A DNA stretch of 29,376 bases. Origin: a virus. Where the stretch lies: positions 1 through 29,376 of the IMG/VR virus record IMGVR_UViG_3300009161_000166; one strand, written 5' to 3'. Both the position numbers and the translations under genes were made by a program. The notes under the pieces were generated by a model that saw nothing but the letters and a program-made list of their open reading frames with translations, was not told the DNA's origin and ran no database searches. The first letter of the stretch is position 1; each line of letters starts with the position of its first letter. Positions 1,623 through 18,404 of this stretch are shown here, one piece after another.

Positions 1623-3847
1623 TGGCTGCGAACGACGTAGAAGCTGCCGGTAAGGTCTCCGAAGCTGACGACCACGACCGTCTGGCGACTATGCGCTCGC
1701 GGTTTACGATGGCGTTGTCGGCCTATTCGGACAGTCGCGAGGACGAGCTGGACGACCTGCGCTTCATGGCGGGGTCGCCCGACAACCAGTGGCAGTGGCC
1801 CGCTGACGTGCTGGCGACCCGTGGCTCCGTGCAGGGCCAGACGATCAACGCGCGGCCGTGCCTGACGATCAACAAGCTGCCGCAGCACGTCCGTCAGGTG
1901 ACGAACGAGCAGCGCCAGAACCGGCCAACCGGCAAGGTTATCCCGGCGGACGACAAGGCCGACGTGGCCGTGGCGGAAATCTTCGACGGCATGGTGCGTC
2001 ACATCGAGTACATCTCGGACGCCGACGTGGCCTACGACACCGCCTGCGACAACCAGGTCACCTACGGCGAGGGCTACATCCGCCTGCTGACGGAATACTG
2101 CCGCGAGGACAGCTTCGATCAGGATCTAAAGATCGGGCGCGTCAGGAACTCGTTTTCGGTCTACATGGACCCAACAATCCAAGACCCGTGCGGCTCAGAC
2201 GCCAATTGGTGCTTCCTGACGGAAGACCTGACCAAAGAAGAATACGAGCGCATGTTCCCGAACGCCTCGCCGGTCAGCTCCATGATGTCGCAGGGCGTGG
2301 GCGACCAGTCGTTGAGCCAGTGGCTGAGCGAGGACACGGTCCGCATAGCGGAATACTTTTACATTGAACACAAGTCGGTCAAACTCAACCTGTACCCGGA
2401 CAATGTGACCGCCATCGACGGCACCCCGCAGGACAAGCAGCTCAAGCTGATGTTCCAGAAGCCGATACGCAGCCGGAATGTCGATAAAAAGCAGGTAAAA
2501 TGGCTTAAAACCAACGGTTTTGAGGTCTTGCAGGAGCAGGACTGGGCCGGAAAGTGGATACCTGTCATTCGCGTTGTCGGAAACGAGTGGGAAGTGGACG
2601 GGCAGCTCTACGTGTCCGGTCTGGTGCGCAACGCCAAGGACGCGCAGCGCATGTACAACTATTGGGTGAGCCAGGAAGCCGAAATGCTGGCTCTGGCCCC
2701 CAAAGCGCCGTTTATTGGCTACGGCGGCCAGTTTGAAGGCTACGAGAACCAGTGGAAGACGGCCAATACGACCAATTGGCCCTACCTTGAGGTCAATCCC
2801 GATGTCACAGACGGTGCAGGATCGGCTCTACCGCTGCCGCAGCGTGCTGCACCGCCGCTCGCTCAGACTGGCCTTATACAGGCTAAGATGGGTGCTTCGG
2901 ATGACATCAAGTCTACCACGGGTCAGTACGACAGTTCACTTGGCGCGGCCAGCAACGAACGGTCAGGCCGAGCCATTCTGGCTCGTGAAAAACAAGGCGA
3001 TACGGGTACGTATCACTACGTAGACAACCTCTCGCGGGCCATCCGCTACGTCACGCGGCAGCTCGTGGACATCATTCCTAAGATTTACGATACAGAGCGT
3101 GTCGCGCGCATCGTCGGCCTTGACGGCGAAGTCGGCATGGTCAAGGTCAACCCACAGCAGCCGGAGCCTGTCAAGTCCATCGTGGACCAGACGGGCATCG
3201 TGATGGAGAAGGTCTACAACCTGTCGGTTGGCGTGTACGACGTGTGCGTCACGACCGGGCCGGGCTACATGACCAAGCGTCAAGAGGCGCTTGACGCCAT
3301 GTCGATGCTGCTTCAGTCGAACCCGGACCTCTGGAAGGTCGCTGGCGACCTGTTTATCAAAAACATGGATTGGCCGGGCGCGCAGGAGATGGCCGCGCGG
3401 TTTGCCAAGATCATTGACCCGAAGGTCATGGAAGGTGAAGATCAGTCCCCTGAGATGCAGCAGGCCAAGCAGCAGATTGAGGCCATGACGCAGCACATGC
3501 AGCAGATGGAAGGCATGTTGAAGCGCGTTGAGCAGTCAATGGAAGCCCAACAGCTTGACATCAAGCGGTTCGACTCGGAAGTGAAGGCATATGATGCTGA
3601 AACTAAGAGAATTTCTGCGGTGCAGGCTTCAATGTCTGAAGAGCAGATACATGACATCGTCATGGGGACAATCCACGCAGCGATTGATACAGGCGACTTG
3701 GTCAGCGGGATGCCGTCTCGTAGCCAGTTGGAACAAAACGAAATGGGCGAAGCGCCTGAAGCTCCTCCGCAGATGGGTCAGCCGCCTATGGGTGAGCCGC
3801 CTGCTGGACCGCCTCCGCAGCCTGAAATGATGGGACAAGGCCAATGA
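1619..3847 (+). CDS. Portal protein, P22-like
   Basis: This 742-residue protein matches the P22-type portal family in length (P22 gp1 is 725 residues) and layout. The dodecameric ring sits at one head vertex and is the channel for DNA packaging and ejection. Characteristic stretches include RPCLTINKLPQHVRQVTNEQRQNRP, a GEGYIRLLTEY segment, a VYMDPTIQDPCGSDANW turn, and ERSGRAILAREKQGD. A C-terminal helical region (about residues 600-700) is rich in Gln and Met and reads as a coiled coil, like the P22 portal barrel. The last 35 residues are Pro/Gln/Met-rich and probably disordered. The start could be ATG 1619 or the adjacent ATG 1622; both overlap the upstream stop. The stop overlaps the next start as ATGA. 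Confidence 0.93.
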   Translation: MMAANDVEAAGKVSEADDHDRLATMRSRFTMALSAYSDSREDELDDLRFMAGSPDNQWQWPADVLATRGSVQGQTINARPCLTINKLPQHVRQVTNEQRQNRPTGKVIPADDKADVAVAEIFDGMVRHIEYISDADVAYDTACDNQVTYGEGYIRLLTEYCREDSFDQDLKIGRVRNSFSVYMDPTIQDPCGSDANWCFLTEDLTKEEYERMFPNASPVSSMMSQGVGDQSLSQWLSEDTVRIAEYFYIEHKSVKLNLYPDNVTAIDGTPQDKQLKLMFQKPIRSRNVDKKQVKWLKTNGFEVLQEQDWAGKWIPVIRVVGNEWEVDGQLYVSGLVRNAKDAQRMYNYWVSQEAEMLALAPKAPFIGYGGQFEGYENQWKTANTTNWPYLEVNPDVTDGAGSALPLPQRAAPPLAQTGLIQAKMGASDDIKSTTGQYDSSLGAASNERSGRAILAREKQGDTGTYHYVDNLSRAIRYVTRQLVDIIPKIYDTERVARIVGLDGEVGMVKVNPQQPEPVKSIVDQTGIVMEKVYNLSVGVYDVCVTTGPGYMTKRQEALDAMSMLLQSNPDLWKVAGDLFIKNMDWPGAQEMAARFAKIIDPKVMEGEDQSPEMQQAKQQIEAMTQHMQQMEGMLKRVEQSMEAQQLDIKRFDSEVKAYDAETKRISAVQASMSEEQIHDIVMGTIHAAIDTGDLVSGMPSRSQLEQNEMGEAPEAPPQMGQPPMGEPPAGPPPQPEMMGQGQ

Positions 3848-4206
3848 AACCCGCTGAATTCATCGGTTGCATGTTCTTGGCGCGGGATGTGGCCCATTCC
3901 GTCCACCTGAACACGCGCAGCTTTGCCAAACACATGGCCTTGAACACTTTCTACGACGAGATTGTCGGTCTGGCCGACTCTTTTGCTGAGGCGTACCAAG
4001 GCCGACACGGGCTGGTCGGCCCCATCACGTTGCATTCGGCCAAAAAGACATCTAATATCGTGGAGTTCCTGACCGACAGCCTGGCTGAGCTTGAAGACGC
4101 CCGGTATAAGGTCTGTAACAAGGACGAGACGGCCATCCAGAACATCATCGACGAGATCGTCGGTCTGTACCTGACGACCCTTTACAAACTTCGCTTCTTG
4201 GCGTGA
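3844..4206 (+). CDS. Helical phage protein, possibly DUF5856-like
   Basis: The protein has 120 residues and appears all-helical. It begins MKPAEFIGCMFLARDVAHSVHLNTRSFAKHMALNTFYDEIVGLADSF in sense, with a later helix DETAIQNIIDEIVGLYLTTLYKL. His and acidic residues spaced along helices (HSVHL, KHMAL, FYDEI) recall the ferritin/Dps-like four-helix layout. I recall related phage proteins grouped as DUF5856, but the label is from memory. No function is established. The gene overlaps the portal stop as ATGA, so it is expressed with the head genes. It may be a minor virion protein or an enzyme-like accessory. No transmembrane segment is visible. Confidence 0.6.
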   Translation: MKPAEFIGCMFLARDVAHSVHLNTRSFAKHMALNTFYDEIVGLADSFAEAYQGRHGLVGPITLHSAKKTSNIVEFLTDSLAELEDARYKVCNKDETAIQNIIDEIVGLYLTTLYKLRFLA

Positions 4207-4215
4207 GGCTCTGAT

Positions 4216-4521
4216 ATGGAACTTTTGAACCCGCTTATTGGCGACCAGTTTGTAGCGCGCACGGTGTCCTACACCGGCACTGCTGGCTCGACTAGTACTT
4301 GGCCCGCTGGCCCACAGGGCGTCGTCGTCTGGTCCGATCAGGCGTGCTACATCTTGGTTGGCGAGGGCGTGACCGCCACGACAGCCAACGGCACACCGCT
4401 CCCGGCCAACACGCCGGTCCCCTTCGTCGTACCTAGCGGCACGGGCGCGCCTTGGCGCGTCAGCGCCATACAGGTCAGCACGGGCGGCACGCTGTACGCG
4501 AAGCCGATCAACATCCGATGA
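4216..4521 (+). CDS. Small beta-rich virion-associated protein
   Basis: The product has 101 residues: MELLNPLIGDQFVARTVSYTG, then a TWPAGPQGVVVWSDQACYILVGEGV core, and an ending GTLYAKPINIR. The many short strands and Gly/Thr/Pro turns suggest a compact beta fold, and the family is common among phage structural gene clusters. I cannot name a specific function. The ATG at 4216 follows the previous stop by nine bases. The stop overlaps the next ATG at 4518 as ATGA. The large antisense frame that covers this area has no matching start context and is treated as a shadow. Confidence 0.6.
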   Translation: MELLNPLIGDQFVARTVSYTGTAGSTSTWPAGPQGVVVWSDQACYILVGEGVTATTANGTPLPANTPVPFVVPSGTGAPWRVSAIQVSTGGTLYAKPINIR

Positions 4522-7066: not shown

Positions 7067-8281
7067 ATGGCTAACAGCCTTCTTACCATCGACATGATCA
7101 CCCGGAAGTCTCTCGAAATCCTTGAGAACAACCTGGTCATCACCCGCAACGTCAACCGCCAGTACGACGACTCGTTCGCCGTTGAAGGCGCTAAAATCGG
7201 CTCGACCCTCCGCATTCGCCTGCCCGACCGCGCTCTGGTCACGGACGGCGCTGCGCTTCAGGTTCAGGACGACAACGAGCAGTTCACGACCCTGACCGTC
7301 TCCTCGCAGAAGCACATCGGCGTGAACTTCACGTCCGCTGAGCTGACGATGCAGTTGGACGATTTTGCGGAACGTGTGCTCAAGCCGCGTATCTCGCAGC
7401 TCGCGTCCAGCATTGACGCCGATGTCGCCAACTCGTTCCAGTCGATCTACAATTCGGTTGGCACGCCCGGCACCGTCCCGTCCACTTCGCTTGTCCTGCT
7501 TCAGGCCCAGCAGAAGCTGAACGAGTTCGCCACTCCGATGTCCCCGCGCTACGCGACGGTCAACCCGGCTGCGAACGCTGGCCTTGTTGAAGGCATGAAG
7601 GGCCTCTTCAACCCGACCTCCACCATCAGCCGCCAGTTCAAGAACGGCATGATGGGCGAAGGCATCCTCGGCCTTGAAGAAGTCAACATGTCCCAGTCGA
7701 TCCGTCAGTTTCTGACCGGCTCGGCCGTGCGTACCGACTCCCTCACGGTCACGTCCACCCTGTCTACGCAGGGCATCAGCACGATCTCGTTCTCTGGCGC
7801 TACCAACGCAAAGACCCTCGTCCCCGGCGATGTCTTTACGATTGCCAACGTGTACGCGGTCAACCCGCAGGTTCGTGAGTCCACTGGTTCGCTCCAGCAG
7901 TTCGTCGTGACCAACACGGTCACTTCGGCCAGCACGGCGTTTACCAGCGTCACGTTCTCTCCTGCCATCTACACCTCAACGAACGCCCTCGCGACCGTTG
8001 ACTCGTTCCCCGCGTCCGGCGCTGCCGTCACCTTGCTTGGTTCGGCCAGCACCTACTACCCGCAGAACCTTGTGTACCACAAGGACGCGATCACCTTCGC
8101 CACCGCCGACCTTCTGCTTCCGCAGGGCGTCGATATGGCCTCGCGTCAGGTCCACAACGGCATCTCGCTCCGCATTGTGCGCCAGTACGACATCAACAAC
8201 GACCGTATGCCGTGTCGTATTGACGTGTTGTACGGTTTCAACACAATCCGCCCGCAGATGGCCACTCGCCTCTGGGGCTAA
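7067..8281 (+). CDS. Major capsid (coat) protein, P22 coat family
   Basis: This 404-residue protein begins MANSLLTIDMITRKSLEILENNLVI in sense, close to the N-terminus of the P22 coat family. It continues with NRQYDDSFAVEGAKIGSTLRIRLP, GVNFTSAELTMQLDDFAERVLKP, then a middle region and a C-terminal LVYHKDAITFATADLLLPQGVDMASRQVHNGISLRIVRQYDINND, all hallmarks of this family. P22 coat has 430 residues, so the size fits. It forms the icosahedral shell with an HK97-type core. An insertion domain is probable around residues 215-330, where Ser/Thr-rich strands occur. The codon use is strongly biased to GC-ending and frequent codons, in keeping with high expression. A strong hairpin follows the stop. 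Confidence 0.93.
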   Translation: MANSLLTIDMITRKSLEILENNLVITRNVNRQYDDSFAVEGAKIGSTLRIRLPDRALVTDGAALQVQDDNEQFTTLTVSSQKHIGVNFTSAELTMQLDDFAERVLKPRISQLASSIDADVANSFQSIYNSVGTPGTVPSTSLVLLQAQQKLNEFATPMSPRYATVNPAANAGLVEGMKGLFNPTSTISRQFKNGMMGEGILGLEEVNMSQSIRQFLTGSAVRTDSLTVTSTLSTQGISTISFSGATNAKTLVPGDVFTIANVYAVNPQVRESTGSLQQFVVTNTVTSASTAFTSVTFSPAIYTSTNALATVDSFPASGAAVTLLGSASTYYPQNLVYHKDAITFATADLLLPQGVDMASRQVHNGISLRIVRQYDINNDRMPCRIDVLYGFNTIRPQMATRLWG

Positions 8282-8289
8282 GCTAACCC

Positions 8290-8325
8290 GCCCCCGGCCA
8301 ACGCCGGGGGCACCTCCTTTTCTTG
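8290..8325 (+). terminator. Hairpin terminator after coat gene
   Basis: A nine-base stem (8290-8298 with 8303-8311) closes on a CAAC loop just after the coat stop. It is followed within a few bases by CCTTTTCTT. The stem is perfect and GC-rich. The T-run is short and offset, so it may act as a partial terminator or as a 3' mRNA stabiliser, limiting downstream transcription relative to coat. Confidence 0.65.
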
Positions 8326-8338
8326 AAAGGCTCTTAAC

Positions 8339-8755
8339 ATGGCTCTCCCTTCTGTTGGCGGTGGCTATCAGTTTAATGATGGCAACCTGAATGAAGTTAA
8401 ACTCACCGTTGCCCTTGTACCGACTACGGCAACCGACAGCGCCACGCTGACGGCTGCTCAGTTGCTCAACGGCATCATCATCGGCACGCCGACGACAACG
8501 GCCGCTTACACGCTGCCTTTGGCGACCGACCTCGACGCCGTGCTGACGAACTCCAAGCCCGGCTCGACGTTTGACTTCCGCGTCATCAACACGACGACGG
8601 CGGGCGTCATCACCGTGACCACCAACACTGGCTGGACCATCGGCAGCAGCGGCTCGCAGGGTCTTATGACCGTTGCGGCCACGGCTGGCACCGTGCGCGG
8701 CTTCCGTGCGCGTAAAACGTCTGACGGCGCTTGGGCGCTTTACGCTCTCTCGTAA
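8339..8755 (+). CDS. Beta-rich capsid-associated protein, possible decoration or fibre-head protein
   Basis: The product has 138 residues, directly after coat. Its pattern is ATLTAAQLLNGIIIGTPTTTAAYTLPLATDLD, then GSTFDFRVINTTT and a closing RGFRARKTSDGAWALYALS. This is a recurrent phage beta-sandwich protein, found next to capsid genes or as C-terminal parts of fibres. Its own GAAAGG ribosome binding site precedes ATG 8339, and perfect hairpins lie before and after it, so it may be translated from a discrete, stable message at a high level. A head decoration role fits the position and predicted abundance but is inferred. It is the same length as the protein at 623-1039, without clear sequence identity. 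Confidence 0.6.
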   Translation: MALPSVGGGYQFNDGNLNEVKLTVALVPTTATDSATLTAAQLLNGIIIGTPTTTAAYTLPLATDLDAVLTNSKPGSTFDFRVINTTTAGVITVTTNTGWTIGSSGSQGLMTVAATAGTVRGFRARKTSDGAWALYALS

Positions 8756-8762
8756 GCAAACC

Positions 8763-8790
8763 GGCCCCTGCTTCGGCAGGGGCCACCTTT
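8763..8790 (+). terminator. UUCG-loop hairpin after decoration-like gene
   Basis: A perfect nine-base stem (8763-8771 with 8776-8784) closes on TTCG, the exceptionally stable UUCG tetraloop in RNA. CACC-like bases and a short TTT follow. The hairpin sits between the gene stop and the next ribosome binding site (AGGAAA). It is a candidate weak terminator or an mRNA-protecting structure. Confidence 0.65.
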
Positions 8791-8802
8791 ACAGGAAATT
8801 TT

Positions 8803-9018
8803 ATGCACATCTATCTGCGCCACCCGGACCACGGCACCAAGGTTGCCACGATGGACCTTGAAGCGATTTATGATGAAGAGAACGGCTGGACGCGCTATAC
8901 TCCCGGCCAGCCTGCGGTAAGTGCGTCGGCTAACGAACTGGTCTCCAGACGGCGCGGGCGTCGTCCTTCGGTTGAGGAAGTAGCGGCAGATGACAACGAC
9001 AGCGGGCGATCAGATTAA
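8803..9018 (+). CDS. Small conserved phage protein of unknown function
   Basis: This 71-residue product starts at ATG 8803, which is preceded by AGGAAA. An in-frame ATG at 8731 would lie within the previous gene and the hairpin. It reads MHIYLRHPDHGTKVATMDLE, followed by AIYDEENGWTRYTPGQP, and has a charged C-terminus (SRRRGRRPSVEEVAADDNDSGRSD area). The N-terminal part has strand-helix character with conserved-looking Gly-Thr-Lys-Val and Trp. Similar proteins sit between capsid and gp4-like genes in related phages. The stop lies 29 bases inside the next gene, so translation is probably coupled. Function is unknown. Confidence 0.6.
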   Translation: MHIYLRHPDHGTKVATMDLEAIYDEENGWTRYTPGQPAVSASANELVSRRRGRRPSVEEVAADDNDSGRSD

Positions 9019-9703
9019 TGGCGCGCTTCGTCTTCTCGGCGTCCTAGCCGAAGGCGAAACCCCGTCTGCGGCCACGTCGCAGGATGCGTTGAACGCGCTC
9101 AACCAGATGATTGACTCGTGGAACACCGAGCGATTGGCCGTGTTCTCCACGCAGGACCAGGTGTTCAGTTGGCTGCCCGGCCTTATCTCGCGCACGCTGG
9201 GGCCAACCGGCGACTTTGTCGGCAACCGCCCGATCCTGCTGGACGACTCCACCTACTTCAAAGACCCGGCCAGCGGCATCTCCTACGGCATCAAGATCAT
9301 CAACCAGCAGCAGTACGATGGCATCGCCGTCAAGACTGTCACCAGCACCTACCCGCAGGTGATCTGGATCAACATGAGCTACCCCGACATTGAGATGTAC
9401 GTCTACCCGGTGCCGACCAAGGTGCTGGAATGGCATTTCGTCTCGGTTGAGGAGCTGACGCAGCCCGCGCTGCTGTCTACCGCGCTGTCTTTCCCGCCGG
9501 GCTACCTCCGTGCGTTCCGCTACAATCTGGCCTGCGAGTTTGCGCCGGAGTTCGGCATCGAGCCGCCGCCTACGGTGTCGCGCATTGCAATGGCGTCCAA
9601 GCGCAACCTGAAGCGCATCAACAACCCTGACGACATCATGGCGCTGCCCTACAGCATCGTCGGTACACGCCAAAGATTTAATATTTTTGCAGGAAACTAC
9701 TAA
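8990..9703 (+). CDS. P22 gp4-like head-to-tail connector (tail accessory factor)
   Basis: This 237-residue protein begins with helices typical of head-tail connectors (AGDQINGALRLLGVL, then DALNALNQMIDSWNTERL). The pattern TLGPTGDF, then RPILLDDSTYF, and later YPQVIWINMSYPDIEMYVYPVPTK resembles the P22 gp4/tail accessory family, which attaches below the portal and seals the channel. P22 gp4 has 166 residues; this type is longer. The gene starts inside the upstream coding sequence (29-base overlap) and its stop overlaps the gp10-like start as TAATG. The gp4-gp10 order matches P22. The assignment is from pattern and order. Confidence 0.82.
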   Translation: MTTTAGDQINGALRLLGVLAEGETPSAATSQDALNALNQMIDSWNTERLAVFSTQDQVFSWLPGLISRTLGPTGDFVGNRPILLDDSTYFKDPASGISYGIKIINQQQYDGIAVKTVTSTYPQVIWINMSYPDIEMYVYPVPTKVLEWHFVSVEELTQPALLSTALSFPPGYLRAFRYNLACEFAPEFGIEPPPTVSRIAMASKRNLKRINNPDDIMALPYSIVGTRQRFNIFAGNY

Positions 9704-11133
9704 TGCAGACGCCCATCCTTGGCTCTGCGTACGTAGCCCGCAGCGTCAACGCTGCGGACAACCGTATGGTCAATCTCTTTCCAGAGATCGTACCCGAAGG
9801 CGGCAAGCAGCCTGCGTTCCTCCAACGCGCCCCCGGCCTGCGTCGACTGGCGACGGTGGGCCTTGGTCCTATCAGAGGACTGCATGCCTACGGCAGCTAC
9901 GCCTACGTCGTGTCGGGCAACGAACTGTACCGCATGGACCCAGCGTACAACACCGTGCTGCTTGGTACGGTCGCCAACGACGGCCCGGTGTCGATGGCCG
10001 ACAACGGCATCCAGCTCTTTATCGCGTGCGGTGGCCCCAGCTACATCTACAACAACAGCACGCTGGCGTTTGGAGCCATCACCGACCCGGACTTTCCCGG
10101 CGCGCTAACCGTCTCGTATCTGGACGGATACTTCGTCTTCATTGAACCCAACAGCCAAAAGGTGTGGGTCACGCAGCTTCTGGACGGCACGTCAATTGAT
10201 CCGCTGGACTTTGCCAGCGCCGAAGGCGACCCGGATGGCCTGATCTCGTCGATTGTGGATCATTCCGAAGTGTGGCTTTTTGGCACCAACTCGGTCGAGG
10301 TATGGTACAATTCCGGTGCGGCCGCGTTCCCGCTCCAACGCATCCAAGGCGCGTTCAACGAGATCGGTTGCGCTGCGACGTTCTCGGTCGCCAAGCTCGA
10401 CAACGCCCTGTTCTGGCTGGGCGCTGACGCGCGCGGCAAAGGTATCGTCTACCGCGCCAACGGCTACACGGGCGTGCGCGTCAGCACGCACGCGGTCGAG
10501 TGGCAAATCCAGCAATACCCCAACATCGCCGACGCTACGGCCTACACCTACCAGCAGGACGGCCACGCCTTCTACGTGCTGTCGTTCCCGTCCGCCAACG
10601 CGACGTGGGTCTACGATGTAGCTACACAGGCGTGGCATGAGCGGGCGGGCTTTAACGATGGGGCCTTCACCCGCCAGCGGGCGTCCATGCAGATGTTCTT
10701 CAGCGACGAGACCATCGTAGGCGACTACCAGAACGGCAAGCTCTACGCTTACGATCTGACGCTCTACGCCGACGACGACCAGACGCAGCGGTGGCTGCGC
10801 TCGTGGCGGGCGCTGCCGACCGGCCAGAACAACCTCAAGCGTGTGGCTAACCACACGTTGCAGCTCGACTGCGAGTCGGGCGTGGGCCTCAACAGCGGGC
10901 AGGGCAGCGACCCGCAGGTCATGATGCGCTTCTCGGACGACGGCGGGCATACCTGGAGCCGCGAGCGTTGGTCCTCGATGGGGGCCATCGGCGAGTACGG
11001 CAAGCGCGTGTTCTGGCGCAGGCTGGGCATGACGCTGAAGATCCGCGACCGCGTGTACGAGATATCCGGTACGGACCCGGTGCCGATCTACATCATGGGC
11101 GCGGAGCTGATCGCGAGCGGCACCAATGCTTAA
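9703..11133 (+). CDS. P22 gp10-like packaged DNA stabilisation protein
   Basis: The product has 476 residues, near the size of P22 gp10 (472). It begins MQTPILGSAYVARSVNAADNRMVNLFPEIVP, a recognisable gp10-type N-terminus in which the phrase SVNAADNRMVNLFPE is typical. It then carries repeated beta blades (GLHAYGSYAYVVSGNELY, GYFVFIEPNSQKVWVTQLLDG, HSEVWLFGTNSVEVWYNSG), suggesting a propeller-like fold. The protein forms the tail hub ring below the gp4-like adaptor and helps keep packaged DNA inside. The FSDDGGHTWS turn near the C-terminus is a beta-propeller-like motif. The start overlaps the upstream stop by one base, and its end overlaps the next gene by eight. Confidence 0.88.
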   Translation: MQTPILGSAYVARSVNAADNRMVNLFPEIVPEGGKQPAFLQRAPGLRRLATVGLGPIRGLHAYGSYAYVVSGNELYRMDPAYNTVLLGTVANDGPVSMADNGIQLFIACGGPSYIYNNSTLAFGAITDPDFPGALTVSYLDGYFVFIEPNSQKVWVTQLLDGTSIDPLDFASAEGDPDGLISSIVDHSEVWLFGTNSVEVWYNSGAAAFPLQRIQGAFNEIGCAATFSVAKLDNALFWLGADARGKGIVYRANGYTGVRVSTHAVEWQIQQYPNIADATAYTYQQDGHAFYVLSFPSANATWVYDVATQAWHERAGFNDGAFTRQRASMQMFFSDETIVGDYQNGKLYAYDLTLYADDDQTQRWLRSWRALPTGQNNLKRVANHTLQLDCESGVGLNSGQGSDPQVMMRFSDDGGHTWSRERWSSMGAIGEYGKRVFWRRLGMTLKIRDRVYEISGTDPVPIYIMGAELIASGTNA

Positions 11134-11710
11134 CGACAGCCAGATCCCGGCACCGCGCGTCCCGATAACCGAGAAGGAAGGCGGGCTAATCACCCGCGAG
11201 TGGTTCCGGTTCTTCAACTTCGTCTACGAGCAGATCGTGCGGCTAACCTCGTTTGCCTACGGGACGTTCAGCGGGTTTGAGACGACGACGTGGGTGTCGA
11301 ACACCACCACGCAGGTGTCCATCACGGACACCGCGCTGAGCAGCGGTGTGTCGGTGGCATCGTCGCAGGTGACGGTCGCCAACGCCGGGCTGTATTCCAT
11401 CAACGCCTCGTTCCAGCTCTACAACCTCAACACTACGACGGCGTACACCATCGCCCTGTGGGCGCGCGTCAGCGGCGTGGACGTGCCAGGCTCCCTGCGC
11501 TACGTCACCGTGTTCGGACCGGGCAGCAGCGCGCAGGCGTACAGCACCCACACCCTTGACCTTACGTTGCAACTTCCGGCCGCAGCGTATATAGAATTTT
11601 ACGGTAATTCCTTCGGCGGGGTAGCGCAGCTTCGTACGATTGCTGCTAACACGACCATAACCGCGCCGTCTGCCGCCAGCATCCTTCTGAACGTGACCCA
11701 GATAGCATAG
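11126..11710 (+). CDS. Tail-associated beta-sandwich protein
   Basis: This 194-residue protein has an N-terminal segment (PAPRVPITEKEGGLITREWFRFFNFVYEQ) that recurs at the start of phage tail or fibre proteins and probably binds the tail. The rest consists of strands (TTTQVSITDTALSSGVSVASS, AGLYSINASFQLYNLNTT, STHTLDLTLQLPAAAYIEFYGNS) with the layout of a C1q/TNF-like jelly roll. Such domains usually trimerise. The gene lies between the gp10-like protein and the main tail fibre, so a tail-tip, needle-like or short fibre role is plausible. P22 has its gp26 needle in this position, but the sequence here lacks the long coiled coil of gp26. Confidence 0.6.
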   Translation: MLNDSQIPAPRVPITEKEGGLITREWFRFFNFVYEQIVRLTSFAYGTFSGFETTTWVSNTTTQVSITDTALSSGVSVASSQVTVANAGLYSINASFQLYNLNTTTAYTIALWARVSGVDVPGSLRYVTVFGPGSSAQAYSTHTLDLTLQLPAAAYIEFYGNSFGGVAQLRTIAANTTITAPSAASILLNVTQIA

Positions 11711-11719
11711 GACGGACAC

Positions 11720-13039
11720 ATGACCTCTTACAATTTGTCATCCTTCGCTGGCGCTGGAGCGCAGTTCTTCGACGACAACGGCAACCCGCTGACCGGCGGC
11801 AAGGTCTACACCTACGCGGCGGGCACGACCACGCCAGCGGCCACCTACACAACCTCAACCGGTGCGGTCGCCAACACGAACCCGATCATCTTGGACGCCG
11901 CAGGGCGCACGGCCAACGAGACTTGGCTGGTGGCCGGGTCGCTCTACAAGTTCATTGTTAAGACTTCAACGGACGTGCTGGTCGGCACCTACGACGGCCT
12001 TCCAGCCATCAACGACCCCTACAGCATCAACTCGCTGCTGGGCAGCGTCACAGGCACGAACGCCATCGCAGCGGTGGCGACGCCGTCCCTCACCGCCTAC
12101 GCAGCGGGCGCGACGTACGCCTTTATCGCGGCCAACAGCAACACGGCGGCCGCAACGCTCAGCATTGATGGGCTTGCGGCCAAGTCGATCACCAAGAACG
12201 GCAGCGCGACGCTGACGGCTGGCGACATCCAGATCGGCAAGCTGACATGGGTGCAGTACGACGGCACGACGTTTCAGCTCATCAACAATATCATCTACGG
12301 TGGCTCCATCACCAACGGCAACATCGTCAGCCTGTCCACGCCGCTCGGCGCGGCCAGTGGCGGCACGGGGCGGTCTACGCTCACGGCCAATTCGGTCCTT
12401 GTGGGAAACGGTATCTCAACCGTGCAATTGATCGCGCCCGGTACAGCCAAGAACGTTTTGACCAGCGATGGCACGACGTGGGCAAGCACGGCTCCGGTTA
12501 TTGCAGCCCCGACCGTAATCGGGCAGGTGCCGTTTAGCACGGACGGGTCCACCTACACGGCGACAGCCAAAATTGTGGCCGCAACAGCCATCACGGTGTC
12601 GGGCACAACCGTTGATTTTACGGCCATCCCGACGTGGGTTAAGCGCGTCACGGTCATATTGTCCGGCGTGTCTACAAACGGTTCTAGCGAAGTTCTGTTG
12701 CAGATCGGCGCGGGTTCAGTCGTTACCAGCGGGTACGCCAGTGGCACTGGCAGCGTTGACTCCGGGGGCACAGCAGCTAACGTAAGCACAGCGGGGTTTA
12801 CTTTAGGGTCCCGCAATGCGGATCTTAACTCAACACGGCAAGGGTCGGTAATTTTGCACAATGTGACTGGGACCACATGGGTGGCAACTGTTGCGTTTGG
12901 CTCGTCCAATGGTACCGGCGCGGGGTGCGTTGGCGGCGGCACACTGGCGCTTAGCGGCGCGCTTGACCGCGTACGCCTTACGACGGCGGGCGGCGTTAAT
13001 ACGTTTGACGCCGGTATCGTCAACATCTTTTACGAGTGA
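11720..13039 (+). CDS. Tail fibre protein
   Basis: This 439-residue protein starts with a common fibre N-terminus: AGAGAQFFDDNGNPLTGGKVYTYAAGTTTPA, followed by NPIILDAAGRTANETWL and VLVGTYDGLPAINDPY. It links the fibre to the tail. The centre has an AASGGTGRSTLTANSVLVGNG repeat-like segment and a GTAKNVLTSDGTTW turn, both widespread in phage fibres. The C-terminal third (IPTWVKRVTVILSGVSTNGSSEVLLQIG, ending FDAGIVNIFYE) is a beta domain likely to contact the receptor. No endosialidase, lyase or peptidase motif was recognised. The stop overlaps a downstream GTG. The last 450 bases use more AT-ending codons than the front half. Confidence 0.8.
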   Translation: MTSYNLSSFAGAGAQFFDDNGNPLTGGKVYTYAAGTTTPAATYTTSTGAVANTNPIILDAAGRTANETWLVAGSLYKFIVKTSTDVLVGTYDGLPAINDPYSINSLLGSVTGTNAIAAVATPSLTAYAAGATYAFIAANSNTAAATLSIDGLAAKSITKNGSATLTAGDIQIGKLTWVQYDGTTFQLINNIIYGGSITNGNIVSLSTPLGAASGGTGRSTLTANSVLVGNGISTVQLIAPGTAKNVLTSDGTTWASTAPVIAAPTVIGQVPFSTDGSTYTATAKIVAATAITVSGTTVDFTAIPTWVKRVTVILSGVSTNGSSEVLLQIGAGSVVTSGYASGTGSVDSGGTAANVSTAGFTLGSRNADLNSTRQGSVILHNVTGTTWVATVAFGSSNGTGAGCVGGGTLALSGALDRVRLTTAGGVNTFDAGIVNIFYE

Positions 13040-13578
13040 GCCCTGTGAAAAACTTCCTCAAGATCGCAGATGGTGTGGACGTTACCCCGGTCTTGCACGC
13101 GCTCATGGTCAATCCAGACCTGTGGGACGAGAACACGCTCCGCACGACGCACGCCGAGACGGCGCACGCAGCCGCCAGCGACATTTGGCTCATGTTCAAC
13201 GACGCGTCTGGCGAGATCGTCAACGACATCCAGGTGCAGCCGTACCGCGCGTGGGACGTTCTCAAGCCGCTGCGGGCACTCATTCTGGACCTGATCCACC
13301 GCGTCAACGGTGTGCAGCTTGGCCGCTGCATTGTCACGCGCCTGCCGCCGGGGGCGGTTATCACGCCGCACGTGGACTCCGGCGCGCCCGCGACGTTCTA
13401 CACCCGCTACCAGATCGCGCTCCAGAGTCTGCCCGGCGCGCTGTTCAATATTGAAGACGAGACGGTGAACTTCCGCTCCGGCGACATTTGGCTCATTAAC
13501 AACAAGGCCGAACACTCCGTGGTGAACAACAGCGCCGACGACCGGATCGTCTGCATCGTGGACATTCGGAGCGCATGA
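13036..13578 (+). CDS. 2-oxoglutarate/Fe(II)-dependent oxygenase, Asp/Asn hydroxylase-like
   Basis: This 180-residue protein shows the facial triad of a 2OG-Fe(II) oxygenase. PHVDSG supplies His112 and Asp114, and AEHSVVNNSADDR supplies His160 and the 2OG-binding Arg170 (numbered from GTG 13036). FYTRYQIAL lies between them. This HxD...H...R layout resembles aspartyl/asparaginyl beta-hydroxylases and prolyl hydroxylase-like proteins. It would oxidise a side chain using Fe(II), O2 and 2-oxoglutarate. The substrate is unknown; a tail fibre residue or a host protein are options. GTG 13036 overlaps the fibre stop; GTG 13045 is an in-frame alternative and neither has a strong ribosome site. It forms a tight pair with the acetyltransferase gene (ATGA overlap). 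Confidence 0.8.
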   Translation: MSPVKNFLKIADGVDVTPVLHALMVNPDLWDENTLRTTHAETAHAAASDIWLMFNDASGEIVNDIQVQPYRAWDVLKPLRALILDLIHRVNGVQLGRCIVTRLPPGAVITPHVDSGAPATFYTRYQIALQSLPGALFNIEDETVNFRSGDIWLINNKAEHSVVNNSADDRIVCIVDIRSA

Positions 13579-14033
13579 TGCTGACCACCCAAGTTGAGCC
13601 GTGGTCTGAGTTCGTCGTGGAGGTCCAGCCGCTCTTCCCGCAGCACTGGGAGGAGCTGGCGCTCAACAAGGACAAAGTTCCGCTCGCGCCGCAGTATCAC
13701 GTGTACGCCGCCCGCGAGGCCGCTGGCGAACTGATGGTCATAACCCTGCGTGACAAAGGGCGGCTAGTAGGCTATTTTGTCGGGATCGTCGCGCCCGGCT
13801 TGCATTACAGCACCTGTCTGACGCTGACGATGGACATCTTCTGGACCCACCCAGACATTCGGGGCGGGTTTGCGGGCGTAAAATTGTTCCGGGCGGTTGA
13901 AAAAGAAGCGAAAAGGCGAGGCGTGCAACGCATGTTCTACGGCTCCAAGCTTCACAAAGACTGCGGCAGTCTGTTCCGGTATCTGGGCTTGGAGCCTATC
14001 GAGACGTACTATTCCAAATGGATAGGGGCTTAA
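13575..14033 (+). CDS. GNAT-family acetyltransferase
   Basis: The protein has 152 residues with a GNAT fold pattern. The central strand-turn-helix DIFWTHPDIRGGFAGVKLFRAVEKEAKRRGV contains the acetyl-CoA pyrophosphate loop (Arg96-Gly-Gly-Phe-Ala-Gly101) and the following helix. KGRLVGYFVGIV is the preceding strand pair, and RMFYGSKLHKDCGSLFRYLGLEPIETYYSKWIG is the C-terminal region. Phage GNAT proteins near tail and ejection genes are known and may modify virion or host proteins; some have been found in particles. The substrate is unknown. The start may be ATG 13575 or the adjacent ATG 13578, and the first overlaps the oxygenase stop. Placement between tail fibre and ejection genes, together with a hydroxylase, suggests modification of a structural partner. 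Confidence 0.8.
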   Translation: MMLTTQVEPWSEFVVEVQPLFPQHWEELALNKDKVPLAPQYHVYAAREAAGELMVITLRDKGRLVGYFVGIVAPGLHYSTCLTLTMDIFWTHPDIRGGFAGVKLFRAVEKEAKRRGVQRMFYGSKLHKDCGSLFRYLGLEPIETYYSKWIGA

Positions 14034-14034
14034 A

Positions 14035-14763
14035 ATGGTCGCAGTCGCAATTGCCGGAGCAGGACTAGTCGGCGCTGGCGCGTCCATCTACAGCTCAAGC
14101 AAAGCCGCTGACGCGCAGAAGGCGGGCATTGACGCCTCCGCTGCTGTGCAGCGGGAGATGTTTGACAAGCAAACGGCGCTTCAGGAACCGTTCCGTCAGG
14201 GCGGCATGACGGCGCAGAACCAGCTTATGACCCTGCTGGGCCTCAACCCCGGCGGGGGCTCTGGCGTTACGGTCAACCCAAACGATCCCAATTTTGGCAA
14301 GTATGCCAAAGACTTTAGCATGGCCGACTATCAGGCAGACCCCGGCTACGCCTTTCGTCTGTCGGAAGGCATGAAGGGTTTGCAAAACTCGGCAGCCGCA
14401 AAAGGTCTGCTGTCGTCCGGTTCGACGTTGAAAGGCATCACGGACTACGGTCAGAACATGGCAAGCCAAGAGTACGGCAACGCCTACAACCGCTACCAGA
14501 CCAACCGCGCCAACCAGCTCAACCCGCTCCAGAGCCTCATGGGGTCTGGACAAACTGCCGCTAACACGCTGACGAACGCAGCGGGCAACTTGGGGCAGGG
14601 GCTGGGGCAAGCTGCGGCCGCGACGGGCGCAGCAAACGCCTCGGCGTACATGAATACCGGGAACGCGCTGTCGAACGCGTTGAGCGGCGGTTTGAACGCG
14701 TACATGGGCTATAACAATATGCAGGCTTACAAAGACCGAACTGCGGCAATGGCTAGGCAATGA
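14035..14763 (+). CDS. Probable DNA ejection / internal virion protein (small)
   Basis: This 242-residue protein has a hydrophobic, Gly/Ala-rich N-terminus (VAVAIAGAGLVGAGASIYSSSKAADAQ), then a helix (KAGIDASAAVQREMFDKQTALQEPF), a DPGYAFRLSEGMKGLQNSAAAKG segment, and an Ala/Asn/Gly-rich C-terminus. This layout, including the GYAFRLSEG phrase, is typical of phage proteins annotated as DNA transfer or injection proteins that sit inside the head and enter the cell envelope with the DNA. It fits the slot of P22 gp7 in the gp7-gp20-gp16 set. Gln, Asn and Ala dominate, as is usual for ejected proteins. The gene begins one base after the preceding stop. Confidence 0.7.
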   Translation: MVAVAIAGAGLVGAGASIYSSSKAADAQKAGIDASAAVQREMFDKQTALQEPFRQGGMTAQNQLMTLLGLNPGGGSGVTVNPNDPNFGKYAKDFSMADYQADPGYAFRLSEGMKGLQNSAAAKGLLSSGSTLKGITDYGQNMASQEYGNAYNRYQTNRANQLNPLQSLMGSGQTAANTLTNAAGNLGQGLGQAAAATGAANASAYMNTGNALSNALSGGLNAYMGYNNMQAYKDRTAAMARQ

Positions 14764-14774
14764 GGGTCTGACCA

Positions 14775-16334
14775 ATGGTTGATTACAATATCGCGATCCC
14801 GCAGCAGCAGCTTTTTCAGGCTCCTGACTTTACGCAGAATGCCATGCGTATGCAGCAAGCGCAGTTGCAGGAAATGCAAATGCAGGCGCTTGCGCGCAAA
14901 AACGCCGCCGCCAGAAACACACAGCAGCTATTTGCGGACCCTAATTTTAGGCTTGATGACCCCGCGTCCATCAATAGATTAGGTCAAGCCGGTGGGGTTA
15001 AAGACGCCACCGCCGCGTTAGTTGCCGTTCGGCAAGCGCAAAAGTTAGAGCGGGACACGGCCAGTACTAACGCTAGTCTTGCGCAAACCTATCAAGCAAT
15101 GGGCGAGGCGGCATATACAAACGCACAAAATCGTTTGGCGGCTATTCCTCCGGGTGACGCGCGGTCTTACGCAAGCTGGCTTGAGGTGCATGGCCCAGCC
15201 TATAAAGCCAATGGTGTAAATCTTCCCACGCCGGAACAATGGGCGCAAGACCCAACAGGTAAACTTCAAGGCCATATGGTTGCTACGTCCCAGTCTGTTC
15301 GGGAAAGTATGAAGCCTCAACTTACCACAATTGGCGGCGTGCCCGCCGAATACACGCCCGGCAAGGGCGCAAAAGAACTTGGCATAACCCCGTTTGCACC
15401 GCAAGGTGCGGATACCGGCGCTGGAGCGGGTACTGGCCCGGCTACGGCGGCTATGAACCCTGACCGGCTTGCAGCCATGCAAGCTACGCAAGCGCGTCTT
15501 GGTCTTCCTCCTATGCAGCCCAGCGCAGCCGGGGCTAATGCTGCGGTCAACAACATGCCCGGCGCGGCTGCGCCAGCGGTGGGCAATGCTATGGTTGCGC
15601 CGCCAACAACAGAAGCGGGAGCAAAAAACACTTTACGCGCTGCCCCGATAGGCGCAGGCGAGTTTATCCAACAGCAAGAAGCGCAAAAGGAACAACGTAA
15701 AGCGCAGATTGCGCAAGAAGCCGCGCAGATACTTACCCCCGTTCAAGAGCAGAAAATGCGCACGGATGTAGGCGAAGCCCGCGCCAACGCCGGGGAGTCT
15801 ATGGCGACGCTTCAGGAAACGCTTCGCGCGGCCAAAGATGTTTTGGCGTTGCCTGAAGAGGCTAAAAACGCAATTTCTGGCTACACGGGAAAATATACGC
15901 CTAACCTCAGCGCGTCAGCAAAAGACGCGCAAACAAAATTTAACGACGTTGTTGGTCAGATAACCGCGATGTCCAAAGCCAGCGCAGGGTCTATCGGCAG
16001 CATGGCGGTTCAAGAATGGAAAATCTTGGCCGACCAAGTCGCGTCCTTGGATCTTACGAATATGGACGCAAAAACGCTTGATAGGCAGATGAAGATCATC
16101 GTCAATCGAGCCGAAGGTCTTATGAACCGTACGCGGTCCAATTACACAAACACGTACGGGCCTTTGATGGAAAAATATAAAGGCCAGTTTGACCTCCCCG
16201 CACCTACTCCGTCTATCGCCATAGGTATTGATCCCCGCGCGATTGAGAAGTTGCGCAACGATCCGTCTATGGCTAAGGCTTTTGATGAGCATTTTGGCCG
16301 TCCTGGCGCTGCCGCAGCAATTCTGGGGAAATAA
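14775..16334 (+). CDS. Probable DNA ejection / internal virion protein (medium)
   Basis: This 519-residue protein is rich in Ala and Gln. The N-terminus (PQQQLFQAPDFTQNAMRMQQAQLQEMQMQALARKNAAARNTQQLF area) is a long Gln/Met helix. The C-terminal third (about residues 300-470) is helical and acidic/basic mixed, including NTLRAAPIGAGEFIQQQEAQKEQRKAQIAQEAAQIL. The middle (about 200-300) is Pro/Ala/Gly-rich and likely flexible. This composition and the position between two other ejection-like genes suggest it is carried in the head and released with the DNA, as P22 gp20 or gp16. No transglycosylase or peptidase motif is seen. Its DNA uses more CAA and AT-ending codons than the tail genes upstream. 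Confidence 0.65.
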   Translation: MVDYNIAIPQQQLFQAPDFTQNAMRMQQAQLQEMQMQALARKNAAARNTQQLFADPNFRLDDPASINRLGQAGGVKDATAALVAVRQAQKLERDTASTNASLAQTYQAMGEAAYTNAQNRLAAIPPGDARSYASWLEVHGPAYKANGVNLPTPEQWAQDPTGKLQGHMVATSQSVRESMKPQLTTIGGVPAEYTPGKGAKELGITPFAPQGADTGAGAGTGPATAAMNPDRLAAMQATQARLGLPPMQPSAAGANAAVNNMPGAAAPAVGNAMVAPPTTEAGAKNTLRAAPIGAGEFIQQQEAQKEQRKAQIAQEAAQILTPVQEQKMRTDVGEARANAGESMATLQETLRAAKDVLALPEEAKNAISGYTGKYTPNLSASAKDAQTKFNDVVGQITAMSKASAGSIGSMAVQEWKILADQVASLDLTNMDAKTLDRQMKIIVNRAEGLMNRTRSNYTNTYGPLMEKYKGQFDLPAPTPSIAIGIDPRAIEKLRNDPSMAKAFDEHFGRPGAAAAILGK

Positions 16335-18404
16335 ATGGCAAACCCTTTTGCTGAATTTGAAGTTCCGGCTGGCCCGCGCAAAGCTGTGGGCGGGCGCGAA
16401 GCCGCGCCAAGTTCCGCAAACCCTTTTGCTGAATTTGAAGTTCCGAAAGCCCCGTCTAACGAACGCACTTTGACCGGTGCGGCGTTAGAAGGCGTGAAAG
16501 CGTTGCCGGGCGACATCGTGCATATGGCGGGGGGTCTTCTGGACGTGGCGGCTGGCGTGCCGCGCGCTGCGGCCAAGGCCGTGCTGCCCGCGCAAATGTT
16601 CTCCGCGATAGACACCTCAGTGGGTGCGCCGGGCGCGGGTGAGCGCGCCACTAACGCGTTCAACACCGTTGCCCGCGATCTTCCGCAGGGGCTGTTCACT
16701 AAAGCCGCTGAGGCTGTGCTTCCCGCCCATACGTTGGCGTTTAGCCGCGCAATAGCGCCTTTTGCAGAGCAAGCCAATCCCGAATTGCAAGCCCGTGCCA
16801 AAGCGACGGCGGATGCGTTCATTGACTCATACGCGGCGTATGGCGACAAGCAGAAATTCTTGGAGAAGCTGGCTACGCAGCCGACTTCGGTTCTGGCTGA
16901 CTTGTCCCTTGGGCTTGGCTTGGGCGCTAAGGTTGCGCCCGCTGGGCGCATAGCCGAGGCGCTCGAACGCGCGAGCGTGCTTACAGACCCCATCCGAGGC
17001 ACCGCAAACGCGCTGCAAGTTACCGGGAACGCCTTGGCGCGTCCGGTCACGGCTGTGTCTAACTTGTTTACGCCTAGCGCCAACATGCTTGTTCCGGCTT
17101 TGGAAGGTCGCGGCGCGGCGTACGTCAATGCGCTTCGCGGCGAAGGTAACGTCATTGTGCCCGGCAGCAAGCCTACAGCCGCCGAAGTGTTGGCGGGCGC
17201 AGGCGTCAGCGGCACGCAGTTCCCTGCGTTGCAGCAGCGGCTGCTTAAAGAAAATATGCCTACAGCCGCAGCGGAATTGGAAGCCGCGCAGACCGCCGCT
17301 CGTCAGCAGTCTATTGGTTCTATCGCTGAGACGCCCGCTAACCTTGAACAGGCCCGCACGACACGCGCGGCCAACGCCAAGGCTAATTACGAAGGGCCAA
17401 TGGCCGTTGAAGTTACGGCGGATGAAAAGCTCGCCCGTATGCTTCAGACGCCTGCTATGCAGGACGCCGTCAGAACGGCGCAAAAAAACGCCGCGAATGA
17501 GCAACGGCTGTTCAAAACAGGCGAAGACGTTCCGGCGCAGACTGTTACATCCACGGTTATGGGGCCGGATGGCAAGCCCCTTACCCGTGAAGCGCCAGCG
17601 GCATTTGCGACATATCCCGGCCAAAGCTTGCACGACATCAAGCTCGCGCTAGACGAAATGATAAAATCCTCGCCGGGTGTTACGGCGGCGGAAAGGGCCG
17701 AACAAAGGACTATTAAATCCGTCCGCGATCAATTTGTCGGGTGGATGGAGAACAAATTACCGGGCTACAAGACCGCGCGGGAAACTTTTGCCGCTGAAAG
17801 CAAGCCGATCAACGTCATGGAAGTCGGTAAGGTGCTTGAGCAGGCGCTCACTAGCCCGCTCAACGAAGGCGTCAGTCGTCCGGGTGTGTTCGCTACTGCG
17901 GTTCGCAACGCCCCCGCTACCATCAAGAAGGCCACAGGCGACACACGGTTCCAGACGTTATCCGACACGCTTGAGGCTGGGGACAGCCAAAAAGTGTCCA
18001 ACATCTTGCAAGACCTCGCGCGGACGGATGAGTATAAGCGTCTAGCCCAGCGCGGGGCGGAGCAAGCGAAAACCTTGGAGGCGGGCAACATCCCACGTAC
18101 GCCTGCTTTCTTTAGCTGGATCGCAACGGCGGCGAATAAGATCGCGGGCGCGCTGGAAGGGCGCATCCAGAGCGCAACGGCTATACGTTTGGCAGAAGCC
18201 ATGCTTGACCCGGCGACCGCCGCGACTGCTATTGAAAAAGCTATGGCTACAAAAGCAAATACGGCAGCACGCGGCGCTGCGGTACGTGCGCCGTTTAACG
18301 CGGCGGCGGAAGCCGCCCGTGCAGCAGCACCTTACGGCTCGCCCATATTGACGATTAACCGGCTCGCGCCGCCCCAAGATAACCGCAACTCAATGGCCCG
18401 GTGA
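16335..18404 (+). CDS. Large probable DNA ejection / internal virion protein with NPFAEFEVP duplication
   Basis: The product has 689 residues and is very Ala-rich. Its N-terminus holds the decapeptide ANPFAEFEVP twice, at about residues 2-11 and 28-37, encoded by identical 30-bp sequences. Next comes an Ala/Gly-rich hydrophobic zone (LTGAALEGVKALPGDIVHMAGGLLDVAAGVP and ADLSLGLGLGAKVAPAG), possibly membrane-interacting, and then a long helical region to the C-terminus. This resembles large phage internal proteins that form a channel through the host envelope. Position after two similar genes supports the role. I see no lytic transglycosylase or protease signature. The start follows the previous stop directly, with GGGGAA upstream. 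The peptide repeat may bind a partner inside the head. Confidence 0.65.
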   Translation: MANPFAEFEVPAGPRKAVGGREAAPSSANPFAEFEVPKAPSNERTLTGAALEGVKALPGDIVHMAGGLLDVAAGVPRAAAKAVLPAQMFSAIDTSVGAPGAGERATNAFNTVARDLPQGLFTKAAEAVLPAHTLAFSRAIAPFAEQANPELQARAKATADAFIDSYAAYGDKQKFLEKLATQPTSVLADLSLGLGLGAKVAPAGRIAEALERASVLTDPIRGTANALQVTGNALARPVTAVSNLFTPSANMLVPALEGRGAAYVNALRGEGNVIVPGSKPTAAEVLAGAGVSGTQFPALQQRLLKENMPTAAAELEAAQTAARQQSIGSIAETPANLEQARTTRAANAKANYEGPMAVEVTADEKLARMLQTPAMQDAVRTAQKNAANEQRLFKTGEDVPAQTVTSTVMGPDGKPLTREAPAAFATYPGQSLHDIKLALDEMIKSSPGVTAAERAEQRTIKSVRDQFVGWMENKLPGYKTARETFAAESKPINVMEVGKVLEQALTSPLNEGVSRPGVFATAVRNAPATIKKATGDTRFQTLSDTLEAGDSQKVSNILQDLARTDEYKRLAQRGAEQAKTLEAGNIPRTPAFFSWIATAANKIAGALEGRIQSATAIRLAEAMLDPATAATAIEKAMATKANTAARGAAVRAPFNAAAEAARAAAPYGSPILTINRLAPPQDNRNSMAR
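16338..16445 (+). repeat. 30-bp perfect direct repeat (16338-16367 and 16416-16445)
   Basis: Two identical 30-base copies are spaced by 78 bases, a multiple of three, so the frame is kept. Each encodes ANPFAEFEVP at the N-terminus of the large ejection protein. Full identity at synonymous sites suggests a recent duplication or gene conversion. Confidence 0.85.

Follow-up and report, generated by a model that had tools for sequence, protein, structure and literature searches.

A Hydroxylase and a GNAT-Fold Protein Encoded as a Conserved Pair beside the DNA-Ejection Genes of Short-Tailed Phages

The virus record IMGVR_UViG_3300009161_000166 (29,376 bases, analyzed over its whole length and called the window here) carries a P22-like head and connector module with genes for a portal, a scaffold, a major head protein, the head closure protein Hc3 and an ejection protein. 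Directly before the gene for a small DNA-ejection protein of the P22 gp7 type, here called ej1, lie two genes, the first for a predicted 2-oxoglutarate (2OG)- and Fe(II)-dependent hydroxylase and the second for a protein of predicted GNAT acetyltransferase fold. Relatives of both proteins are encoded in the same order in many other phages and in prophages, and they adjoin ejection genes, with a variable gene on their other side. We propose that the pair is a maturation module for DNA-ejection proteins, most likely ej1, and we put the probability of this reading at roughly 0.45.

The pore proteins of short-tailed phages are insoluble; they are carried in the head and, once released, build a channel that spans the cell envelope. 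According to PMC8954989, the gp14/gp7-type protein does not dissolve when it is outside the virion, is ejected first and, in T7, forms a pore in the outer membrane. The position of the pair beside the ejection genes in many short-tailed phages from water suggests that it is the ejection machinery, not the tail fibre, that is prepared. Furthermore, two small, conserved enzymes encoded together at this site would provide a lead on the roles of the products of P22 gene 14 and T7 gene 13. No published description of a hydroxylase–GNAT pair was found in the literature searched.

Families and folds of the two proteins

By family match and by residues, the first gene product is an aspartyl/asparaginyl-type hydroxylase of the PF05118 family. 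Its open reading frame (ORF) matched PF05118 (Asp_Arg_Hydrox) in Pfam with an E-value of 3.4e-14 and 53.4 bits, against a cut-off of 22.6, and it holds H112, D114, H160 and R170 in an HxD...H...R arrangement that was kept in 94 of 94 distinct relatives. These relatives come from the loci that carry both genes, and locus L082, which lacks the hydroxylase, is therefore outside the set. The original prediction, made from the letters of the sequence, had named a 2OG-Fe(II) oxygenase with a complete HxD...H...R set, and this assignment was confirmed. We take H112, D114 and H160 to be the Fe(II) ligands and R170 to be the arginine that binds 2-oxoglutarate. The nearest relatives by sequence in the PDB were of the proline 4-hydroxylase type (2e-7) and AspH (1e-4), and there was also a weak match to Cupin_2 (1.3e-4). 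The window protein shares with known members of the family (L-proline cis-4-hydroxylase, 4p7w and 1e5r; AspH, 5apa and 5jqy) a score above the cut-off, the HxD...H residues and the distal arginine, but it differs from them in being a stand-alone phage protein of about 177 amino acids (aa) encoded in a structural operon. A pattern search of genome contigs for the hydroxylase returned 53 pattern matches, none of them a relative. Cyanophage hydroxylases are mentioned in a passage of PMC3037559.

The second gene product is, according to its predicted structure, a GNAT-fold protein. The ORF matched PF00583 (Acetyltransf_1) in Pfam with an E-value of 1.1e-4 and 22.9 bits, against a cut-off of 20.7, and the PHROG acetyltransferase family phrog_1249 (2.5e-11). 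The AlphaFold (AF2) model had a predicted local distance difference test score (pLDDT) of 88.8 and a template modeling (TM) score of about 0.7 to solved GNATs. Comparison with 1vkc gave a Z score of 15.4 over 142 residues with a root-mean-square deviation (rmsd) of 2.4, and comparison with a ribosomal-protein-alanine acetyltransferase gave a Z score of 15.0 over 144 residues with an rmsd of 2.9. The model fitted podoviral GNATs better than solved ones in a Foldseek search against viral models, with TM scores of 0.83–0.89 among the matches listed (0.87 for VpV262). Family, PHROG and fold agree with the earlier call of a GNAT; collectively, the presence of two enzyme-like proteins within the structural operon was borne out.

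The phrog_1249 "acetyltransferase" proteins of podoviruses (VpV262 ORFS and GNATs of Vibrio phages) share with the window GNAT the fold, the family and the slot directly 5′ of the ejection cassette. They differ from it in having no hydroxylase partner, and an imperfect acetyl-CoA loop, described below, belongs to the window group. Distant GNATs that are 30–43% identical to that of the window lie in Zobellviridae (e.g., VpV262) directly 5′ of a small gene with a hydrophobic start, which is followed by a giant internal-virion gene, and others in loci L224 and L225 lie directly 5′ of a phrog_598 gene. In a prophage survey of the class of G003, the GNAT profile matched 2 of 369 genomes, one being G003 itself.

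Inheritance of the pair and its linkage to the ejection genes

Relatives were fetched from viral contigs, 70 loci and later additions being selected by the GNAT, and ten loci and L205 by the hydroxylase; in the latter eleven the presence of the hydroxylase is by construction, and most loci are GNAT-selected. For counting, 88 loci distinct at the GNAT end were used, two named phages included, while 21 repeat GNAT ends were set aside together with L019, which has a hydroxylase-like gene and no GNAT. The hydroxylase was found in 87 of the 88 loci and an ej1 homologue in 82. Among the six without ej1, the sequence stops 1 nucleotide (nt) past the GNAT in four, and the remaining two are L198 and Limnohabitans phage DC33. 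The cultured phages that carry the pair include DC33 and Pseudomonas fluorescens phage PfAn1. The hydroxylase lay directly 5′ of the GNAT in the GNAT-selected loci, with L082 as the sole exception. All eight loci from cellular genomes (as recorded, two from Sphingobium, two from Achromobacter, one each from Massilia and Sphingopyxis, and two from metagenome bins) likewise had the hydroxylase followed by the GNAT. The pairing is not a matter of chance, because relatives of both proteins were found in the same order in phages and prophages, and these results support the hydroxylase and the GNAT as one inherited module. The original prediction had counted rare co-occurrence as evidence against itself, and the two genes instead proved to co-occur well outside this phage.

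The gene directly 5′ of the hydroxylase was located in 91 of the 94 loci and was sorted by BLAST into 30 groups; this number is a maximum, because one family of small proteins may be divided over several groups. The fibre type of the window occupied this place in 4 of the 91 loci (the window and three near relatives), and most others had unrelated genes, the largest group (48 of 91) being mostly a protein of about 112 aa. This protein is encoded between the fibre gene and the hydroxylase gene in L031 (about 4112–4462) and in many relatives, and it is absent from the window.

The ejection cassette of the window has a P22-like layout, with the gp7-type ej1 followed by two larger genes, ej2 and ej3, which were assigned by position. 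Loci L206, L207 and L209 showed no match to Hc3, the needle or the window-type fibre upstream of the pair. In L206, the pair is followed by ej1, ej2 and ej3, and the 8 kb to its left gave no match to Hc3, the needle or the window-type fibre; the region 7462–15010 of this Sphingobium contig may be a prophage in decay, or else some element in which an ejection cassette has been retained. In L207, ej1, ej2 and ej3 come first, then two short ORFs and after them the hydroxylase and the GNAT, and the relocated pair still lies by the ejection genes. The tail fibre, which the original prediction had favored as the modified protein, was rejected as the main target because the preceding gene varies and the relocation in L207 keeps the pair at the ejection genes. 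Thus, the pair does not form a module with the fibre. In the podovirus MW202665, a hydroxylase gene without a GNAT overlaps a "DNA ejection" gene (phrog_21132, 9.5e-49), and the hydroxylase gene of its near copy L223 has the same place. This lone hydroxylase and the distant GNATs of Zobellviridae are independent cases of a position in front of ejection-type genes.

The genes of the pair overlap or abut each other and ej1. Of the 88 distinct pairs that have ej1, 85 show a distance of −1 to +18 nt between the GNAT stop and the ej1 start; the start is 58 and 67 nt off in two of the remaining three, and L207 is rearranged. Exactly 1 nt separates GNAT and ej1 in 61 of the 88 pairs, as it does in the window, and the hydroxylase/GNAT junction is equally tight, −1 being the commonest value in relatives (55 of 94) and some overlap being found in 80 of 94. 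The most likely GNAT start in the window is 13578, with a 1-nt overlap in TGATG. A 4-nt overlap between the fibre and hydroxylase genes requires the GTG at 13036 as the start. Relatives of the hydroxylase open with M-[KRQ]-[NHY]-F-L, which in the window corresponds to the GTG at 13045, 5 nt past the fibre stop; the start was placed there because the proteins of the relatives begin at the equivalent residue, and the overlap with the fibre gene is therefore probably not real. Of the overlaps that had been noted at both junctions, the one between hydroxylase and GNAT is thus retained, and the other is likely to be a 5-nt gap.

Proposed maturation of ej1 and points against it

As the pair appears to be made with ej1 and is rarely far from it, it is best read as serving the maturation of ej1. 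The hydroxylase and the GNAT would be made late and translated in one run with ej1. If both are active enzymes, their target would be an ejection protein that is still being made or has just been made and has yet to enter the head; ej1 is the most likely one, with ej2 and ej3 as alternatives. The benefit of the modification, whichever residue receives it, might be to keep the hydrophobic ej1 soluble or to tune its insertion into the membrane. The second residue of ej1 is Val in 84 of 88 proteins (82 MV and 2 VV, where the first V is taken to be a GTG start). Five ej1 relatives from phages without the pair have other beginnings, and in four of these a comparable VA motif is preceded by one to three additional residues. 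As a guess from these starts, ej1 may be N-terminally acetylated after Val2, and stop–start overlaps may partly explain the start pattern.

Locus L082 (3041–3920) provides one natural comparison. Relative to L078, the hydroxylase is cleanly lost between two stop–start junctions, and the GNAT is kept. The first 20 residues of its ej1 show 13–19 differences from four relatives that carry the hydroxylase, and the rest of the protein differs by 9–14%. When ej1 proteins other than that of L082 were compared, 212 pairs showed less than 30% difference outside the first 20 residues, and within these residues they had at most 12 differences. The link between the loss of the hydroxylase and the N-terminus of ej1, if causal, is probably indirect.

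Several observations weigh against an ej1-directed function. The L082 case is a single event, and the loss there hints that the hydroxylase may be dispensable. In L078–L081, Asn, Pro, Lys, His and Tyr are absent from the first 20 residues of ej1. The segment consists of Ala, Gly, Val, Ile, Ser and Leu, and Asp occurs no earlier than the last one or two positions of a 22-residue stretch; given this make-up, ordinary hydroxylation of Asp or Asn inside the hydrophobic segment is unlikely. Related phages carry ej1 without the pair, and the pair is therefore not required by every such ej1. Across the 94 pairs, the distances of hydroxylase and GNAT were correlated (rho 0.78; partial rank correlation 0.54 after Hc3), and this joint divergence beyond the Hc3 background favors the module, whereas the partial correlations of the hydroxylase and the GNAT with ej1 after Hc3 were 0.00 and −0.12. 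Of the six proteins compared, the GNAT was the slowest (mean distance 0.32) and ej1 among the fastest (0.65). Co-divergence is weak evidence because adjoining genes share a history and the ej1 distances are large, and the ej1 part of this result argues against tight co-evolution.

Exceptions to the arrangement point the same way. In DC33, ORF8 is a relative of the hydroxylase with a GNAT directly 3′, as in the window, but the pair differs in position, lying between the terminase gene and, past a short ORF, a phrog_332 portal-type gene, with no recognized ej1 adjoining. The GNAT of L226–L237 departs from the rule: the gene 5′ of it encodes some 400 to 1,320 aa, and a different gene follows it wherever the sequence extends that far. 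Itty13 and L019 have a hydroxylase-like gene that is located elsewhere or has no GNAT. Finally, the textbook acetyl-CoA loop of GNATs is R/Q-x-x-G-x-G/A, and the RGGFAG loop of the window protein deviates from R-x-x-G-x-G/A; across relatives, R96 was kept in 94 of 94 and G101 in 91 of 94, and the fourth position was Gly in just 9 of 94.

Alternative explanations

The strongest alternative, which we consider unlikely, is that the GNAT, in the slot that P22 gp14 and T7 gp13 hold, serves ej1 mainly as a noncatalytic assembly factor, with the hydroxylase as a separate add-on enzyme. P22 gp14 is regarded as an assembly factor. The gene order is 26-14-7-20-16 in P22 and 12-13-14-15-16 in T7, and both P22 gp14 (151 aa; DUF2824, PF11039; recorded as "virion stability factor" or as "head morphogenesis") and T7 gp13 (PF11090) resemble the GNAT in size and in their slot before gp7 and T7 gp14, respectively, although neither has a hydroxylase partner. 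The imperfect loop and the retention of the GNAT in L082 also favor such a role, as does the one PDB match of the P22 gp14 family profile at E-values up to 5, which is a GNAT (3fbu, weak, E 0.12). Against it, hhalign found no match of the GNAT to P22 gp14 or to T7 gp13, the T7 gp13 profile had no GNAT match in the PDB, and the invariance of D87, R96, H77 and Y78 (94 of 94) resembles an active site more than a scaffold. Pfam gave no PF11039 match in the window and no PF11090 match for its GNAT, and gp14 and gp13 were not named among the 50 matches listed in the Foldseek search, several of which are nameless. Homology of the GNAT to these proteins was thus not established by hhalign, PDB profile search, Pfam or Foldseek. 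The AlphaFold model of a gp14 copy (pLDDT 37.5) was unusable for fold comparison, and the DUF2824 profile matched 0 of 369 genomes in the class of G003. A relation at the level of Pfam clans may exist. No mention of gp14 was found in PMC3741392 or PMC4992974.

It is rather improbable that the target of the two enzymes is a host factor or a small molecule (in anti-defense, takeover or metabolite modification) and that the slot is merely convenient for late genes. The co-divergence result is what a conserved target outside the virion would give, the closest solved folds to the GNAT model include aminoglycoside acetyltransferases as well as RimI, and the DC33 pair lies away from a recognized ej1. 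The profile of the hydroxylase is near proline hydroxylases, which act on free amino acids. The linkage to the ejection genes, on the other hand, is constant in unrelated phages and persists after relocation. Modification of the tail fibre, which directly precedes the pair in the window and its three near relatives, is highly improbable in view of the 30 groups of preceding genes, the loci with no recognizable fibre or needle upstream and the L207 pair 3′ of the ejection genes. We assign a very small probability to retention by shared descent in one phage group with no joint function: most loci do come from one P22-like group and L082 splits the two genes, but the pair is found beside terminase and portal-type genes in DC33 and as a relocated copy in L207, and it persists while flanking genes diverge or are exchanged.

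Other proteins in the slot before ej1

The phages DSL-LC05, VvAW1 and MW202867, which have no pair, encode a protein of 157–164 aa directly 5′ of ej1, and P26218 encodes one of 291 aa; VSN-002 has no such slot protein. These proteins match phrog_12032 or phrog_24280, families annotated as short tail fibre or as tail fibre adhesin. At least one of them looks cupin-like and not fibrous, with a weak Cupin_2 match (0.0012). They are like the hydroxylase in their slot near ej1 and, in one case, in the weak Cupin_2 match, but unlike the window pair they have no PF05118 match and no adjoining GNAT. A broader proposal, tentative and in our judgment somewhat unlikely, is that a two-step hydroxylase and acetyltransferase system matures the trans-envelope DNA-ejection pore of podoviruses, and that the slot before the gp7/T7 gp14-type protein is a general slot for pore maturation. 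It would be filled by a GNAT, a hydroxylase, a cupin-like protein, P22 gp14 or T7 gp13, some of them perhaps active enzymes and some reduced to chaperones.

Gene map and additional observations

Table 1. Genes around the hydroxylase–GNAT pair in the window, and slot proteins of phages without the pair (coordinates of their own loci)
Feature	Coordinates	Strand	Basis and remarks
Head closure Hc3 (P22 gp10-like)	9703..11133	+	phrog_578, E 6.4e-135; marks P22-like connector module
Gene at tail-needle position	11126..11710	+	Between Hc3 and fibre, where P22 has gene 26; no Pfam or PHROG match
Putative tail fibre/appendage	11720..13039	+	Weak N-terminal match only: phrog_26190 (function unknown), 5.9e-10
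PF05118-type 2OG-Fe(II) hydroxylase (predicted)	13045..13578	+	Likely start GTG 13045, 177 aa; ORF 13036–13578, 180 aa
GNAT-fold acetyltransferase-like protein (predicted)	13578..14033	+	Likely start ATG 13578, 151 aa; ORF 13575–14033, 152 aa
ej1, small DNA-ejection protein (P22 gp7-type)	14035..14763	+	phrog_598, E 6.1e-34; proposed partner of the pair
ej2, second ejection-cassette gene (P22 gp20 position)	14775..16334	+	Position only; no PHROG match
ej3, third ejection-cassette gene (P22 gp16 position)	16335..18404	+	Position only; no PHROG match
Slot proteins of phages without the pair	L243 3432–3905; L244 3447–3941; L245 3385–3870; L242 3030–3905		Directly before ej1

Limnohabitans phage DC33 (L002, PQ492659.1) is filed under Inoviridae, although its genome measures 39 kb and includes terminase and portal-type genes. 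A passage of its paper groups its hydroxylase with metabolic genes, and the mentions of "acetyltransferase" there concern another phage (PMC12195039). The virus contigs that carry the GNAT relatives of L226–L237 reach 67 kb. Within the head module of the window, directly 3′ of the portal gene, positions 3844–4206 match phrog_858, a "starvation-inducible transcriptional regulator" (8.8e-25), which is an odd site for a regulator.

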